DNA of 32,692 nucleotides, from positions 1 through 32,692 of the forward strand of contig JASEHJ010000011.1 in NCBI GenBank assembly GCA_030018905.1. The letters are read 5' to 3'. The translations under genes and the position numbers were made by a program. Numbering within the stretch: the first letter of the stretch is position 1; every line of letters begins with the position of its first letter. This stretch comes from a bacterium. Lineage in GTDB: Bacteria > Sysuimicrobiota > Sysuimicrobiia > Sysuimicrobiales > Humicultoraceae. The notes under the pieces were generated by a model. It saw nothing but the letters and a program-made list of their open reading frames with translations, had not been told where the DNA came from and searched no databases. Shown here piece by piece: positions 1 to 8,168 of the stretch.

Positions 1-107
1 CCTCCTTGGCGCGATGATACCTACTTCGGTAACAGCTATTCATGGCTTGACAGGCCCCCGGGCAAGGCGCGCATTGCCTCATCGGAAATCCAACCCTGGG
101 AAGGGTC

Positions 108-134
108 GTTGCCTCATCGAAGATCTTACCGAGC
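108..134 (+). repeat. Left inner terminal inverted repeat of the IS
   Basis: These 27 bases, read on the minus strand, align without gaps to 1295-1321. GCTCGGTA matches at one edge and TGAGGCAAC at the other, with a divergent centre. An outer related copy of the core begins near 74. The repeat falls inside the longest open frame of the transposase, so translation probably begins downstream of it. Confidence 0.7.
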
Positions 135-166
135 TCGTCTCCCGCGTTGGAGGTCTGCCCGGTCCC

Positions 167-1303
167 ATGACGCCCCTCGCTCGACGCCAGCTCTTGCAGG
201 CACTGCACCCCCACTACCGGTCGGCTCCCAGGGCAGGGAAAACCCAGATCCTGGACACCTTTGCCACCGCCACCGGCTATCACCGCAAGTACGCCCTCGG
301 CCTCCTCCGGCACGGACCACCCTCGCCCCGCCGGCCGCGACAGGGCCGGCTCCGTTACGACGCCCCGGTGGTGGAGGCACTCCAGCGGGTGTGGACCCTC
401 TCCGGAGGACTGTGTAGCAAACGCCTCGCCCCTTTCTTGCCCGCCCTCCTGGAGGCCCTGGAGCGCCACGGTGAGATCCGCCTCGCCCCCACGATCAGGC
501 AGCGGCTCCTTCTGATGAGCCCGGCCACCATCGACCGCAAGCTTGCCCCCTACCGCCGCCTCAAGCTTCGCGGCCGCACCACCACCCGCCCTGGCGCCCT
601 CCTCAAGCAGCACATACCCGTGCGCACCTTCGCCCAGTGGAACGATCTGCGCCCAGGCTTCACCGAGATAGACCTGGTCGCCCACTGCGGTGAGTCCGCT
701 CACGGTGAGTTCGTCCAGACCTTGAGCCTCGTCGACATCGCCACCGTTTGGTTTGAAGCCCAGGCCGTCCCCACCCGCAGTCAGCGCGCCGTCTTCGCCG
801 CCCTGACCACAATCCAGGCTCGGCTCCCATTCCCCTTGCGAGGCATCGACTCCGACAACGACAGCGCCTTCATCAACGCTCACCTGCTCCAGTACTGCCA
901 GCGCCAGCGCCTCACGTTCACCCGCTCCCGCACCTACACCAAGAACGACCAGGCCCACGTCGAGGAGCGCAACGGCATGGTCATCCGCCGGCTCATCGGC
1001 TACGACCGCTACGAAGGCGACCGGGCCGCCCAGACCCTCAACCGCGTCTACGAGACCCTGCGCCTGTGGACGAACTTCTTTCAGCCCACCATGAAGCTCG
1101 TCCACAAGACCCGCCGCGGTGCGAAGGTCTGGAATCGCTACGATCGCGCCCAGACTCCCTACCAGCGCCTCCTCACCTCCCGATGCCTTTCCACCATCAC
1201 TGCCCAGGTACTGGCCACCCGCTATGCGAATCTCAACCCCATCGCCGTGCGCCAGGGGATCCAGCAGCAGCTCCAGACCATCTGGACCCCGGTAGCTCGG
1301 TAA
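167..1303 (+). CDS. DDE transposase with integrase (rve) core
   Basis: Probable transposase for cut-and-paste or copy-in movement of the surrounding IS. The frame is open from 14, but the IS left-end repeats occupy 74-134. ATG 167 is therefore the preferred start (378 aa), with GGAGG about 13 bp upstream; that spacing is long and the start is not certain. The catalytic core shows TEID (Asp169), SDND (Asp230) and AHVEERN (Glu266). The last two acidic residues are separated by 35 residues, the classic D,D(35)E spacing of retroviral-integrase-fold transposases. The N-terminal ~120 residues are Arg/Leu-rich and helical, as expected for a DNA-binding region. No frameshift or stop interrupts the frame, so the copy may be active. 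The family resembles integrase-core transposases outside the large named IS families; the exact IS family was not determined. Confidence 0.85.
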   Translation: MTPLARRQLLQALHPHYRSAPRAGKTQILDTFATATGYHRKYALGLLRHGPPSPRRPRQGRLRYDAPVVEALQRVWTLSGGLCSKRLAPFLPALLEALERHGEIRLAPTIRQRLLLMSPATIDRKLAPYRRLKLRGRTTTRPGALLKQHIPVRTFAQWNDLRPGFTEIDLVAHCGESAHGEFVQTLSLVDIATVWFEAQAVPTRSQRAVFAALTTIQARLPFPLRGIDSDNDSAFINAHLLQYCQRQRLTFTRSRTYTKNDQAHVEERNGMVIRRLIGYDRYEGDRAAQTLNRVYETLRLWTNFFQPTMKLVHKTRRGAKVWNRYDRAQTPYQRLLTSRCLSTITAQVLATRYANLNPIAVRQGIQQQLQTIWTPVAR

Positions 1304-1949: not shown

Positions 1950-2056
1950 ACGGCTTGACGAATAGCCATCTTCCCTGCTAGGATGCTGTTCGGCAGTGGG
2001 GCGCGCGACCCTGTGTGCGCCAAGCAGCCGGCTGCAGCTCTTCGGGGAGGCTATCT

Positions 2057-2782
2057 GTGCCGCGCAGTGCGCACTTCAGAGCTCGCGCCCTAGGACTTGC
2101 CCTCATCGGCGCGCTTGCCCTCTCTGCCCCCCTTGGCGCTGCCTGGAGCCCTCTCCCCCCAGGAGGCATCGCCACCCTAAGCTTCATCGGAGAGGACGCG
2201 GTTGATCTGGTCTATCAGTCCCGCGACATCCCCCTGAACGCCGCATCCTTCGCGCAAACCCTCGCCGCGGTCTCCATCGTCGCTTCCACGCCCCCCAGCC
2301 CAATCAACCCCGTGCTTGTCCAGCTTGGCTTGGGCGCCGCCGGCATCCCCTATCTTCCGGCCCGTAGTTGCTGGCCGGGTGACGGCGCGCTGGCAATCGT
2401 CCCCACCGCTCCTGCAGGAGCGGTCGACCTCGCGTTGAGCGCCGCAGGAAAGTATTTCGACCCCAACACCCAGGCGCACGAGTTCGCGACGGCGTACTGG
2501 CAGCGACTGTTCACCACTACCCCCAGAAGCGAGCCTGCGCCGCCCGGTTGGCCCGGCCAGCCGGCCCTGGAAGCCCTCAAGGAGTCTATCGTCGGCGGCC
2601 TGCCCTTCCCGTCCAACCTGGGCCCGATGACCACCTATCAGGCGAGGGGTATCGTGCCGTTCCTGATGGTCCGCGGCGACTACGTCCCGGTCTGCTTCTT
2701 CTTCATCTGCTTCTGGTTCCCAAAGTGCCAGGTGGTATTCGCTCCCTCCAGCGAGGGCTACGGCCTGCGGGAAGTGCGGTAG
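2057..2782 (+). CDS. Secreted or lipid-facing hypothetical protein, 241 aa
   Basis: The function is not recognised. GTG 2057 is the chosen start because GGGGAGG lies six bases upstream. It places a textbook signal peptide at the N-terminus: Arg/His-rich residues, then a hydrophobic run LGLALIGALALSAPLGA, with likely cleavage after Ala-Ala before WSPLPP. The mature part is Pro/Ala/Gly-rich with few charged residues in its first half. Near the C-terminus is an unusual aromatic and cysteine-rich hydrophobic stretch, VCFFFICFWFPKC, about 20 residues before the end. It could be a membrane-inserting hairpin or a disulfide-bonded strand. The next gene starts 69 bp downstream on the same strand. An export role is inferred from the signal peptide only. 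Confidence 0.6.
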   Translation: MPRSAHFRARALGLALIGALALSAPLGAAWSPLPPGGIATLSFIGEDAVDLVYQSRDIPLNAASFAQTLAAVSIVASTPPSPINPVLVQLGLGAAGIPYLPARSCWPGDGALAIVPTAPAGAVDLALSAAGKYFDPNTQAHEFATAYWQRLFTTTPRSEPAPPGWPGQPALEALKESIVGGLPFPSNLGPMTTYQARGIVPFLMVRGDYVPVCFFFICFWFPKCQVVFAPSSEGYGLREVR

Positions 2783-2851
2783 TGAAGGGCTTTGTGCGCC
2801 TGGCGGCGCCGGTTCTTCGCGCACTTTACCCCACAGGAGGCTGGTGACCCA

Positions 2852-4207
2852 ATGAGCCAGATCGTCCCCCTGGATGAGATCAAGACTTTCTACCCCCGCA
2901 TCGGTAAGATCTCTGCCGGCTACAAGTCCGCGAAGACCACCAACGGCAGGACCGTCACGTTCCCGGTCCGCAGCGACACACTCGTGTTCCGCTCGGATGA
3001 CCGCAGCCGGCTCGAAGCGATCGCGGCCAAGCTGGGAGGCGCCGTCACTTCCTCGCCCGATCCCGCCACCGAAGGCACCTGGAGGCTGATCTCCAAGGCC
3101 ATGTCCGTCGACGTCGTCGTCCCGGCCAACGACCGGCGCGGCTGGGCGGCCGTCTATGAGTTCTGGGGGGCCGGCGGCAAGCTGCGCGAGTGCGACGGCC
3201 GCACCTGCCGCTTTGCGGTTGACCCGCAGACCGGCGAGCGACGCGAGGACATCCCCTGCGTCTGTCGCGAGCTCGAGCTGGAAGGCGACCAGGCGTGCAA
3301 GCTCACCAGCCGCCTCAACGTTATCCTCCCCGACCTGCTCGACGTCCCCGGCCTAGGGGTCTGGCAGGTCGAAAGCCGTGGCACCTCCACCTACATGGCC
3401 CTCCAAGGCACGGTCAACTTCCTCGAGCACGCCGGCGGCATCATGGGGGTCCCGCTGGCCCTGCGTATCGAGATACGCCAGTCCCGCGACCCCAGCGGGC
3501 AGATCCGCAAGTGGCCGGTGTTCACGCTGGCGGCCAAGGAGTCCTTTGCCCGCGCGGCTGCGCGCGCGCGGAAGATGCGCCGGCTCATCGACCCTGCCAA
3601 CGTTCCCGCACCCGAGGACAGCACGCCGCCGCTGGGCGCCGTGATGACTTCGGAGGAAATGCAGGCCGCCGCCAAGGCTGAAGCCGGAACTCCCCTTGCA
3701 GCGCTCGCGGCACCCGAGCCCCAGACGGCCCACGTGCCCGCGCCGCCCGTCAACACCCCGCCTCCGCCTGCGCCAGAGAGCACCAAGACCCGATCGGGCC
3801 GCCCGACTACAACCGATTTCTGGAAGGTTGTTCGACGGGCCGCTGCGCTGCAGTCGGTGGACCCGGTTGCCTGGCTGGCCGATCGCACCGGGGGCATCCC
3901 CGACATCCGCCAGCTGACCGACGACCAGGTCCGCGCGGTCTACAGCGAAGCCCAGCGCCTCGTTACCAACCCTCAGGGGGAGCTGCCACCGGTCGCACCG
4001 GCGCCCAAGACCAACAACGGTCAGCCCAGCTACCCACAGATTGCCAACCTCCAGACGCTCTTTCGCGAGAAGCGCATCAGCGCAAAGGCACAGGCAGCCC
4101 TCATCCAGACAGCCAGCCAGAAGCGCACCGCCATCGTGAACGAGTTGACCGCGGCGGAAACTGACACCCTGATCGCGATGCTGACGACAGGTGCCACCAC
4201 ATGCTGA
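2852..4207 (+). CDS. Recombination directionality factor-like (Gp3-like) protein
   Basis: The protein (451 aa) resembles the phage phiC31 Gp3-type recombination directionality factor family, in which Gp3 switches a serine integrase from integration to excision. The N-terminus has the PRIGKI...K...GK/GRTVTFPV pattern followed by F.SDD, as in that family. A cysteine cluster follows (Cys114, Cys119, Cys136, Cys138, Cys149), then a KLTSRLNVILPDL...G.GVWQVESRGTSTY block. After a Pro/Ala-rich linker (about 285-320) come two helical modules; the last ends LTAAETDTLIAML, like short C-terminal modules of phage recombination proteins. ATG 2852 is chosen for the ACAGGAGG upstream. The last seven bases overlap the start of nrdJ, so the two are probably translated together. 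No serine integrase is present in the window. Family assignment is from recalled motifs, not a search. Confidence 0.65.
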   Translation: MSQIVPLDEIKTFYPRIGKISAGYKSAKTTNGRTVTFPVRSDTLVFRSDDRSRLEAIAAKLGGAVTSSPDPATEGTWRLISKAMSVDVVVPANDRRGWAAVYEFWGAGGKLRECDGRTCRFAVDPQTGERREDIPCVCRELELEGDQACKLTSRLNVILPDLLDVPGLGVWQVESRGTSTYMALQGTVNFLEHAGGIMGVPLALRIEIRQSRDPSGQIRKWPVFTLAAKESFARAAARARKMRRLIDPANVPAPEDSTPPLGAVMTSEEMQAAAKAEAGTPLAALAAPEPQTAHVPAPPVNTPPPPAPESTKTRSGRPTTTDFWKVVRRAAALQSVDPVAWLADRTGGIPDIRQLTDDQVRAVYSEAQRLVTNPQGELPPVAPAPKTNNGQPSYPQIANLQTLFREKRISAKAQAALIQTASQKRTAIVNELTAAETDTLIAMLTTGATTC

Positions 4208-6729
4208 GTAGCAAACTCGCTCTTCCCGCCACCACCCTGGCCGCCTTCGGCGGCGACGAGCTGGCCGCGCGCGTGTTCCATGAGAAATACGCCCTGCGCG
4301 ACAGCGCCCATCAGGTCGTTGAACACACCCCCGACGAGATGTGGAGGCGCGTGGCCACCGAGATCGCGTCCGTCGAGGAGAGCGAGAAGAACAGAGTCAT
4401 GTGGACTTCGGCGTTCCACTGGCTGCTCTCGGACTTCCGCTTTCTCCCCGGCGGCCGAATCCTTCACGGCGCAGGTAATCCGGCCAAAGTGACGCTCCTC
4501 AACTGCTACGCGGTAGCGATCCGCGACGATAGCCTGGAAGGCATCTACGACGCCGCTTACCGCGCTGCCCGCACCTACTCCCGTGGCGGAGGCGTCGGCA
4601 TTGACATCACCCCCCTTCGCCCCAAGTCCGCACCCGTTCACAACGCCGCCCGCACAAGCACCGGCGCCGTCTCGTTCATGGACCTCTTCTCGCAGACCAC
4701 CGGGCTGATCGGGCAGTTCGGCCGGCGCGGAGCGATGATGATCACCATCGCCGACCACCACCCCGACGTGCTGGACTTCGTCAAGGCCAAGCGCAACACC
4801 GAGAAGGTCCGGTACGCCAACCTCAGCGTCCGCATCTCGGACGCCTTTATGCGCGCAGTCGAACGCGACGAGCCGTGGACGCTCTGGTTCGCCTCCGACG
4901 TCGTCGGGCGTATCGAACGCCAGATCCGCGCCCGCGACCTATGGAAGGAGATCGTCCACAGCGCGCACGCCTGGGCAGAACCCGGCCTGCTGTTCTGGGA
5001 TACGGTGATCCGCGGAGGAACCAGCAACTACGCGGGGATGACCCCCATTACCACAAACCCATGCTCCGAAATCCCGCTTGACGACGGAGGCGCCTGCAAT
5101 CTTGGCTCGCTCAACCTGGCCCGGTTTGTCCGCGATCCGTTCACCCCGAACGCGCTCGTTGACATGAGCGCTCTGCTCGCGGCCGTCGGGGCGGGAGTGC
5201 GCTTCTTGGACAACACGCTCACCTACAACCAGGGCCGCCATCCTCTCCCCGACCAGGAGGAGTCCGCAAGACGCAGCCGCCGCATCGGGTTGGGCATCAC
5301 CGGCCTCGGGGATGCCCTCGTCATGCTCGGGCGGCGCTACGATAGCGACGAAGCCATCGACACCGCCGAGTTTCTGATGCGAGCAATCAAGGAGGCCGCC
5401 TACACCACCAGCGTGGCGTGGGCCATCGAGCGAGGACCGTTTCCGGCCTTCGACGTTGAGAAGCATCTCAGCGCGCCGTTCTTCGATGGCTTCCCCTCCG
5501 ACCTTCTGGCAAAGATCCGGAACTATGGCCTGCGGAACGTGTCGCTTCTTACCATCCCGCCCGTCGGCTCAGGATCCGCTCTTGCCGGCGTCACAAACGG
5601 CCTGGAGCCGATTTTCGCGCTTCACTACCTGCGCCGGTCGGAGTCGCTCTCGGTGGATACCTTTGGCGTGCTCCACCCGCTGGTCTCCGCGTACTTCCAC
5701 GCCACCGGTCAGACCATCGATCCCGTAGCGATCTCCTGCATGGAGGCCCCGGACGCCTATCTCCAAGAGCGTCTGCCGGCCGCGTTCGTTACGGCGCACC
5801 AGGTTGCGCCGCTCAAGCGGGTCGAGATGCAGGCGGCTCTACAGCGGCATATCGACCAGGGCATCAGCAGCACCGTCAACCTGCCTCAGGATGCCACCGA
5901 GGAGACCGTCAGCCAGATCTACGTGGAAGCGTGGCGCTGCGGCCTCAAGGGCGTCAGCGTCTACCGCGAAGGGTCGCGTGAAGGCGTTCTTCTGACCACC
6001 AGAGGTGCGAAGCCCGACGCTGTCCTCACCACCTTGCGTGACGACGTGGTGGAAATCGCCCAGGCGGCGCTCCCCTCCCTCCCCGCGGAGGGTGTCACGC
6101 CGGCGGAGCACGTCAAGAGCATCGTCCGCGTCTTAGCCGACGCCGCCCGGCCACGCATCGAGCAGCTGGAGCTTCTTCCCGAAGAGCCCGGCCTGCTGCG
6201 CTCCCGTCCGCAGCATCTGCCCGGGGTCACCTACCGAACGGAGACGCCGGAATACTCTTCCTTCGTCACAATCACGGAGCACAACGGTCATCCGTTCGAG
6301 ATCTTCGCCACGATCGGCAAGAACGGCGCTCAAACCCAGGCGATAGCCGAATCGATCGGCCGGCTGTCCAGCTTCATCCTGCGCATGAAGGACGGCCTCA
6401 GCGGCGAAGCTCGGCTGCAGGGCATTTTCGATCAGCTCGACGGGATCGGCAGCAACAGACCGTCCGGCTTCGGGCCCAACAAGGTCCACTCGATTCCCGA
6501 CTCGATTGCCGTTGCAATCGGTCGCTACCTGCGCAATCGCCACGCCGGGACAGACTCCTTCCCGGATGGCCCACCGCGACCCGCCGATCCGCACGAGCAC
6601 GAGGCCCAGGAGCCCCGCGCAACACCCAACGGCAACGCGCACGCCGACATCTGCCCGCGCTGCCACCACCTCTCTCTCGTCACCACCGAGGGCTGCGCCA
6701 AGTGCGCCTGCGGCTACCGAGAGTGTTGA
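4201..6729 (+). CDS. nrdJ: Adenosylcobalamin-dependent (class II) ribonucleotide reductase
   Basis: Reduces ribonucleotides to deoxyribonucleotides using a B12-generated thiyl radical, independently of oxygen. The protein has 842 aa. The active-site loop NPCSEIP holds the expected Asn286, Cys288 (radical) and Glu290. The substrate-reducing cysteine pair is Cys102 (LLNCYA) and Cys299 (GACNLGSLNL). STVNLPQ and WRCGLKGVSVYREGS are typical of NrdJ. Residues ~670-780 form a TSCPD-like domain (SIPDSIAVAIGRYL at its end). The C-terminus is a Cys-rich tail, CPRCHH...CAKCACGYREC, that would shuttle electrons to the active site. The start ATG lies inside the end of the preceding gene (ATGCTGA), so expression is probably coupled to the directionality-factor-like protein. 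That partner is unusual for a housekeeping reductase and common for phage or element-borne ones. Enzyme identity is secure; element origin is inference. Confidence 0.92.
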   Translation: MLSSKLALPATTLAAFGGDELAARVFHEKYALRDSAHQVVEHTPDEMWRRVATEIASVEESEKNRVMWTSAFHWLLSDFRFLPGGRILHGAGNPAKVTLLNCYAVAIRDDSLEGIYDAAYRAARTYSRGGGVGIDITPLRPKSAPVHNAARTSTGAVSFMDLFSQTTGLIGQFGRRGAMMITIADHHPDVLDFVKAKRNTEKVRYANLSVRISDAFMRAVERDEPWTLWFASDVVGRIERQIRARDLWKEIVHSAHAWAEPGLLFWDTVIRGGTSNYAGMTPITTNPCSEIPLDDGGACNLGSLNLARFVRDPFTPNALVDMSALLAAVGAGVRFLDNTLTYNQGRHPLPDQEESARRSRRIGLGITGLGDALVMLGRRYDSDEAIDTAEFLMRAIKEAAYTTSVAWAIERGPFPAFDVEKHLSAPFFDGFPSDLLAKIRNYGLRNVSLLTIPPVGSGSALAGVTNGLEPIFALHYLRRSESLSVDTFGVLHPLVSAYFHATGQTIDPVAISCMEAPDAYLQERLPAAFVTAHQVAPLKRVEMQAALQRHIDQGISSTVNLPQDATEETVSQIYVEAWRCGLKGVSVYREGSREGVLLTTRGAKPDAVLTTLRDDVVEIAQAALPSLPAEGVTPAEHVKSIVRVLADAARPRIEQLELLPEEPGLLRSRPQHLPGVTYRTETPEYSSFVTITEHNGHPFEIFATIGKNGAQTQAIAESIGRLSSFILRMKDGLSGEARLQGIFDQLDGIGSNRPSGFGPNKVHSIPDSIAVAIGRYLRNRHAGTDSFPDGPPRPADPHEHEAQEPRATPNGNAHADICPRCHHLSLVTTEGCAKCACGYREC

Positions 6730-6821
6730 GGATCCCCAATAACCGCTATCCGAGCTCACTGGTCTGATTGTTGCTGGCACGGAGTGCAGGTGGGGAGAAA
6801 AACCTCGAGGAGGGATTTCCG

Positions 6822-7247
6822 ATGTTGAAGTGCTTCTGGAAGAAGAGGGGGCAGCGCGGCTTCACGCTGATCAAGATGGTCGTCGTGCTCGCGATCCTCG
6901 GCATCCTGATTGCCCTGGCGGTGCCCCGATACCTCGGCGCCCGCCGCAGTGCCCTGATCGCAGAGGGCGACAACGTGCTGCAGGAGATCAAGACGCTGGC
7001 GTGGGCCTACTACCAGCAGTACAGGACGTTCGCTGGCGGAGGCTCGGCGACGGTCCTGGGATTCGTCGCGCCTCCCGACGCCGTCGGATGCTGGGACTAC
7101 ACTTTTCCGACCGCTACTGGAACCCTGATCCAGATTGTCGCCACCGGCAACAACACCCCGGCCAAGTGCGGCCCAGTGAACGGTGCGACCATCACCCTGA
7201 CGTTGAACAACGGCGGTTCTTTCTCGCGGGCGCAGGTGCTGCCGTAG
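6822..7247 (+). CDS. Type IV prepilin-like protein with Lys at mature position 5
   Basis: A 141-aa pilin or pseudopilin precursor. The start ATG 6822 follows GAGGAGGG. A short basic leader (13 residues ending RGQRG) precedes the prepilin peptidase site G13|F14. A hydrophobic helix follows (FTLIKMVVVLAILGILIALAVP) and then the globular domain ARRSALIAEGDNVLQEIKTLAWAYYQQY. Two Cys in the C-terminal half (within GCWDY and AKCGPV) could form the usual D-region disulfide. The odd point is Lys at mature position 5, where almost all major pilins have Glu, which pairs with the N-terminal amine during assembly. That suggests a minor, initiating or non-polymerising pilin, or an early decay mutation. 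No assembly genes (pilB, pilC, pilD) lie nearby. The domain assignment is firm; the role is not. Confidence 0.85.
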   Translation: MLKCFWKKRGQRGFTLIKMVVVLAILGILIALAVPRYLGARRSALIAEGDNVLQEIKTLAWAYYQQYRTFAGGGSATVLGFVAPPDAVGCWDYTFPTATGTLIQIVATGNNTPAKCGPVNGATITLTLNNGGSFSRAQVLP

Positions 7248-7617: not shown

Positions 7618-8168
7618 GTGTACCTACGGACTGTCGAACCCGGGTCGATCTTCGGCGCCCCGATCGCCGTGGGGCTGCACCGGGGGGACAGGGTTCGAGG
7701 CCTCCATCGTCCTGCGGATGGTCGCCTCGATGGCGACTGCGCCGGTGGGGGCCGAGATCATCGTCTACGTCCTCTACCAGACCCTGGCGGCGGGGCGGCG
7801 ACCCTCTTCCATCGATTCGTCCGCTCCGCCGCCGTGGTGGTCGGCTGCTACGCGGCGTACGCACTGGGCTCCAACAACGTCGGCAACGCCATGGCCACCT
7901 TCGTGGCGGTGGGCGCCCTCGACCCGGTCTCGGCGCTGGTGGCCACGGCCGCCACCCCGGCGACCGTGCACCTGTTCGCCCAGCTGGGCATCCCAGGTTC
8001 GACCTCGCAGGCGATCGTGGAGGCGGTGGTGGGCGTGGGCCTCACCAAGGGCGTGCTGGCCGTCAACCTCCGCACGGTCCTGATGATCCCGGCGGCTGGT
8101 TCGTCAGCGTCACCGGCGCCGCCGGAGGGGCGTTTCTCCTGAGCCTCGGCTGGGCCCTGTGCCGCTAG
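7618..8168 (+). pseudogene. Decayed PiT-family inorganic phosphate transporter
   Basis: Remnant of a sodium- or proton-coupled phosphate permease, scattered over all three plus frames. Frame changes occur near 7690, within the G-rich run about 7786-7799, and near 8090. Recognisable pieces in order are GAPIAVGLHRG, TAPVGAEIIVYVLYQTLAAG, then VGCYAAYALGSNNVGNAMA (the family's GANNVGNA signature), GIPGSTSQAIVEAVVGVGL (the second signature, normally PVSTSQA), and finally GWFVSVTGAAGGAFLLSLGW. The first half of the transporter is absent. The distance between the two signatures is much shorter than usual, which points to an internal deletion. The stop codon (8166-8168) overlaps the convergent stop of the ferritin-like gene. 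No functional product is expected. Confidence 0.7.

Follow-up and report, generated by a model that had tools for sequence, protein, structure and literature searches.

The window, a bacterial contig analysed over its whole length of 32,692 nt (C22), contains a gene for a Gp3-like protein of 451 aa (P0001), which runs directly into a gene for a class II ribonucleotide reductase (RNR) of 842 aa (NrdJ, P0002). The pair most likely arrived by horizontal transfer as a small cassette and lies amid ordinary host genes. With moderate confidence, we explain it as a two-gene cassette in which gp3-like precedes nrdJ, both genes being co-transcribed and probably translationally coupled, one for a putative phage-family ssDNA binder and the other for dNTP supply. 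The contig belongs to a MAG of 340 contigs (92% complete) and displays the following features:

14-1303, forward strand: IS481-like DDE transposase at the left contig end (NF033577 3.9e-9, rve 2.7e-6; both below the curated cut-offs)
2015-2782, forward strand: upstream ORF with a signal-peptide-like start; membership in the cassette uncertain
2837-2842, forward strand: Shine-Dalgarno-like AGGAGG ahead of the Gp3-like gene (read from the sequence; position approximate to 1-2 nt)
2852-4207, forward strand: Gp3-like (PF18897) gene, 451 aa, with the domain at residues 16-230, a linker and C-terminal helices (Pfam, PHROG, AlphaFold2, Foldseek)
4201-4207, forward strand: ATGCTGA overlap between the gp3-like stop and the nrdJ start (ORF coordinates and sequence)
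4201-6729, forward strand: class II (B12-dependent) ribonucleotide reductase NrdJ, 842 aa (TIGR02504, Ribonuc_red_lgC, invariant residues, tree)
6730-6759, no strand: right edge, with similarity to the host genome restarting at 6753-6759 (blastn of the flank)

The AGGAGG motif lies 11-12 nt 5' of the Gp3-like ATG and thereby backs the start at 2852. A preliminary description of this DNA had reported the seven-base overlap, and the ORFs 2852-4207 and 4201-6729 indeed share positions 4201-4207. It further took the overlap to force co-expression. In 77 of the 104 viral Gp3-like genes with downstream sequence, an open frame begins with a start codon no more than 14 nt from the stop, mostly as ATGA or GTGA. 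Overlap with the next gene is therefore common in the family and points to ordinary operon packing; it shows no special regulation.

The left end of the contig falls inside the IS. We considered whether the rve/IS481 match could represent the transposase of a Mu-like phage and rejected this, given the weakness of the match and the lack of any observed Mu genes. Searches of Pfam, PHROG and NCBIfam revealed no match for the ORF 2015-2782; its single homologue (55%) lies amid host-type genes in genome G035, and a phage match was looked for and not found. Apart from the IS481-like transposase, the window ORFs scanned with Pfam contained neither a tyrosine nor a serine integrase, in agreement with the preliminary description, which had noted no integrase nearby. 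We found no phage structural or packaging genes, recognised no further phage gene beside the pair, and detected no att-like direct repeats around it. Rfam, tRNA and defence-family searches gave no match. From 8.6 kb onward, the window carries ordinary genes of peptide, amino-acid and sugar metabolism.

Residues 17-217 of P0001 match PF18897 (Gp3-like) with E=1e-26 and 94.4 bits against a cut-off of 23.6, which confirmed the earlier Gp3-like assignment; phiC31 gp3 scores 1.7e-17 against the same model. P0001 also matches phrog_16191 (1.9e-30). The AlphaFold2 model of P0001 reached a mean pLDDT of 78, with domain blocks mostly at 80-97. In Foldseek, it matched the solved phiC31 recombination directionality factor (RDF; PDB 9teh) with E=7e-14 and a TM score of 0.72 on the target, and the model of a VWB-type domain (pLDDT 92) likewise matched 9teh (3.5e-13). 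Below this hit, the matches were weak (E 0.02-0.7, none individually significant) and mostly OB-fold ssDNA-binding proteins (SSB, RPA, RB69 gp32); no RecT/Red beta/Rad52-type fold was among the matches listed. Cysteines in the motifs C.RRCDG, PCxC and C are invariant across the family and, from the sequences, look metal-binding. P0001 keeps C114, C136, C138 and C149 and is without one of the near-invariant cysteines. Gp32 and RPA70 are zinc-containing OB proteins. The preliminary description had regarded the linker and the C-terminal modules as unexpected extras. Viral Gp3-like members have a median length of 370 aa (range 295-518, n=57), and a long C-terminal tail is usual for the family. A comparison of the P0001 C-terminal helices with the tails of other members gave a best E of about 0.02, with no tie made.

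To look at genomic neighbours, we used viral loci from a scan of IMG/VR with a degenerate motif, which returned 120 stretches, nearly all coding for Gp3-like proteins; the sample is biased, since the loci were fetched with the motif, and partly redundant, with 60 loci left at a 70% identity cut. Of the viral Gp3-like loci, 95 have 900 nt or more of upstream sequence; in 84 of these, a phrog_298-type exonuclease gene lies on the same strand no more than 400 nt upstream, and in four others of this set it lies within 1.7 kb. In another exception, L120, a YqaJ/RecE-like exonuclease takes its place. In VWB, mu1/6 and SF3, an exonuclease gene is followed by the Gp3-like homologue and then by DnaQ-like and RuvC-like genes; the order exonuclease, Gp3-like is also found in Streptomyces plasmids, and in phiC31 one gene lies between the two (gp1 (exonuclease)-gp2-gp3). 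Distant members from a different phylum (three bacterial genomes) adjoin nuclease or ATPase genes: a PD-(D/E)XK nuclease and an SbcC-like ATPase at L239, SbcD and SbcC at L241, and DnaB and SbcC nearby at L240. Several nuclease types thus stand beside Gp3-like members, and different nucleases recur as neighbours. The three distant loci are perhaps prophages. Among Gp3-bearing viral contigs of at least 50 kb, a serine recombinase was detected on 9 of 50 and a tyrosine integrase on 26 of 50, counts in which fragments may miss genes; mu1/6 has a separate annotated excisionase.

Judged from family neighbourhoods and fold model, P0001 is a phage-type, exonuclease-linked and probably ssDNA-binding protein, and reading it as an RDF is unlikely. 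P0001 resembles the actinophage proteins VWB gp9, mu1/6 gp14 and SF3 gp49 (phrog_16191), which share the domain, the long tail and an operon position with overlapping genes; in these, an exonuclease gene lies in front and DnaQ-/RuvC-like genes behind, whereas P0001 is followed by nrdJ and has no nuclease beside it. The exonuclease gene is absent from the cassette, and a genome-wide search gave weak partial matches only. Red beta/RecT/Sak and T4-type gp32 resemble the Gp3-like family in the genomic slot beside an exonuclease or SbcCD and perhaps, weakly, in an OB-like fold, but have no sequence match to it.

In the mechanism that we propose, the Gp3-like protein would coat or anneal the ssDNA left by a partner nuclease in phage replication and recombination, a place that other phages fill with annealing proteins or SSBs. 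In the present cassette, which a phage or other element may have brought in, the nuclease gene is missing and the RNR gene adjoins the Gp3-like gene instead. The two genes would be co-transcribed, the overlap would couple the synthesis of both proteins, and NrdJ would supply deoxynucleotides and raise the dNTP supply, so that the pair could serve a joint function. The hint in the preliminary description that the protein may serve replication or repair is judged right.

P0002 matches TIGR02504 with 3.7e-157 and 524.5 bits (equivalog cut-off 399.95) and Ribonuc_red_lgC with 1.3e-104, and also contains a TSCPD domain. In an alignment of P0002 with three relatives, no variation was seen at C102, N286, C288, E290, C299 or the C-terminal cysteines. 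By these sequence criteria, P0002 qualifies as a complete class II NrdJ with the full domain set and catalytic residues, as had been described before. It is a second, divergent copy: another nrdJ of the same genome, on contig C314, is 59% identical to P0002 and groups with the copies of the sister genomes. In the tree, P0002 joins the second NrdJ copies of G018 and G021 and the G034 copy, all from the same order (support 99/99), while three phage NrdJ sequences form a separate clade. The grouping with phages that the earlier reader had suggested looking for was thus not recovered with the phage NrdJ sampled. As an observation on the phylum, this divergent second lineage is patchy and occurs beside the usual copy (G018:C2, G021:C2, G034:C69, G038:C8 and window 4201-6729). 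Host NrdJ proteins with long in-frame insertions, probably inteins, were also seen in several relatives (G005:C48, G016:C172, G017:C139, G019:C26, G035:C80).

The gp3-like and nrdJ pairing was found only once, at this locus. A Gp3-like gene is absent from the three sister genomes and from all 42 other genomes of the phylum, and no RNR barrel domain was detected on 50 long Gp3-bearing viral contigs. Protein searches with P0001 over genome contigs and viral contigs and with P0002 over viral contigs, a search with the clade alignment A4 and a motif variant that included the P0001 insertion of three residues all revealed no match. The preliminary description had named a single occurrence without a conserved neighbourhood as refuting its proposal, and by that measure of its own the pair as such fails.

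Host-like sequence (pilin regions) restarts 24-30 bp past the nrdJ stop; blastn of the right flank matched contig C75 of the same genome from 6753 onward (88%) and sister genome G003 from 6759 onward (84%). The coding-strand GC skew is -0.11 in both gp3-like and nrdJ, below the 5th percentile of 52 host ORFs (-0.057), and the ORFs starting at 2015, 2852 and 4201 range from -0.11 to -0.15. Codon usage of the pair is host-like and gave no separation; strand skew alone separates it. The right flank, the skew and the IS481-like left side fit a horizontally acquired piece. Further to the right, we noted a type IV pilin-like gene (6822-7247) with paralogues of 84-88% in its own and sister genomes, and a PiT-type transporter gene remnant with a broken frame (7645-8117), which has tandem relatives on G000:C320 and G003:C3. 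Counted against the cassette explanation are the lack of any other recognised phage gene beside the pair, the host-phylum-like NrdJ, the weak OB matches, the missing cysteine of P0001 and the biased viral sample.

The clustering of P0002 with second copies from the same order, which in G018 and G021 lie among host genes, would also suit a selected host pair, in which a domesticated Gp3-like protein would work together with the second NrdJ to repair or replicate the chromosome in certain circumstances. Both frames are intact and a strong ribosome site is present, in keeping with such selection. We nevertheless consider a host pair improbable: the Gp3-like gene is missing from the sister genomes and all 42 other genomes of the phylum, the related second NrdJ copies in G018 and G021 have no Gp3-like neighbour, and the strand skew is atypical. 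Still less probable is that a phage-derived gene and nrdJ were joined by chance, through rearrangement or misassembly next to the IS. The 340 contigs of the MAG, the contig end within an IS, the degraded PiT transporter remnant close by and the single occurrence would all agree with such a junction, but misassembly would hardly produce two intact frames that overlap by 7 bases, as is typical of an operon join, and the unusual skew is common to both genes. That P0001 is a true RDF and a remnant of a temperate phage or integrative element, with its serine integrase lost or on another contig, is very unlikely despite its sequence and fold kinship with the proven phiC31 RDF and the rearranged region indicated by the IS and the host junction, because most relatives lie beside nucleases on contigs without a detected serine recombinase, no integrase is seen in the window, and P0001 and phiC31 gp3 are distant in sequence.

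The cassette explanation leads to a re-reading of PF18897, which the neighbourhoods suggest to be a nuclease-linked phage DNA-processing family. The gp3 RDFs of phiC31 and phiBT1 share PF18897 with P0001; the phiC31 RDF superposes with its model, and phiC31 gp3 lies close downstream of the exonuclease gene gp1. They differ from P0001, which has no serine integrase found nearby and adjoins an RNR; in the fold alignment, phiC31 gp3 (244 aa) and P0001 (451 aa) are about 19% identical, and the last conserved cysteine is kept in P0001 and lost in phiC31 gp3. Since the family adjoins recombination nucleases and is often found on tyrosine-integrase phages, integrase control in phiC31 looks derived, and RDF activity there looks like a second use; this reverses the earlier suggestion, in which it was a directionality factor that became repurposed. 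Deletion of phiC31 gp3 abolished plaques, and a DNA replication role besides excision was proposed (PMC3836970); the RDFs of Bxb1 and phiC31 both have phage replication functions (PMC5311408). In the literature, we found no paper connecting Gp3/RDF with annealing proteins and no demonstration of ssDNA binding by a Gp3-like protein, and a 2024 annealase survey does not mention Gp3/RDF. We tentatively put forward, at somewhat less than even chances, that the family is an unrecognised phage ssDNA-binding/annealing class, probably with an OB fold in which clustered cysteines bind metal. It would work with recombination nucleases of several unrelated types, would have been co-opted by phiC31 to reverse its integrase and, in the member described here, would have been rewired to travel with an RNR. 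If true, the phiC31 RDF, a much-used genome-engineering component, derives from a widespread phage DNA-processing family. Such an origin would explain why gp3 is reportedly needed to form plaques and make the source of large RDFs a testable question, and the family would supply candidate recombination proteins for high-GC hosts. PF18897 matches should meanwhile not be named directionality factors. As a separate observation on one of the viral contigs, QueD-, QueE- and QueC-like genes were recognised by eye from the sequence near a Gp3-like gene (L137:3232-7079).
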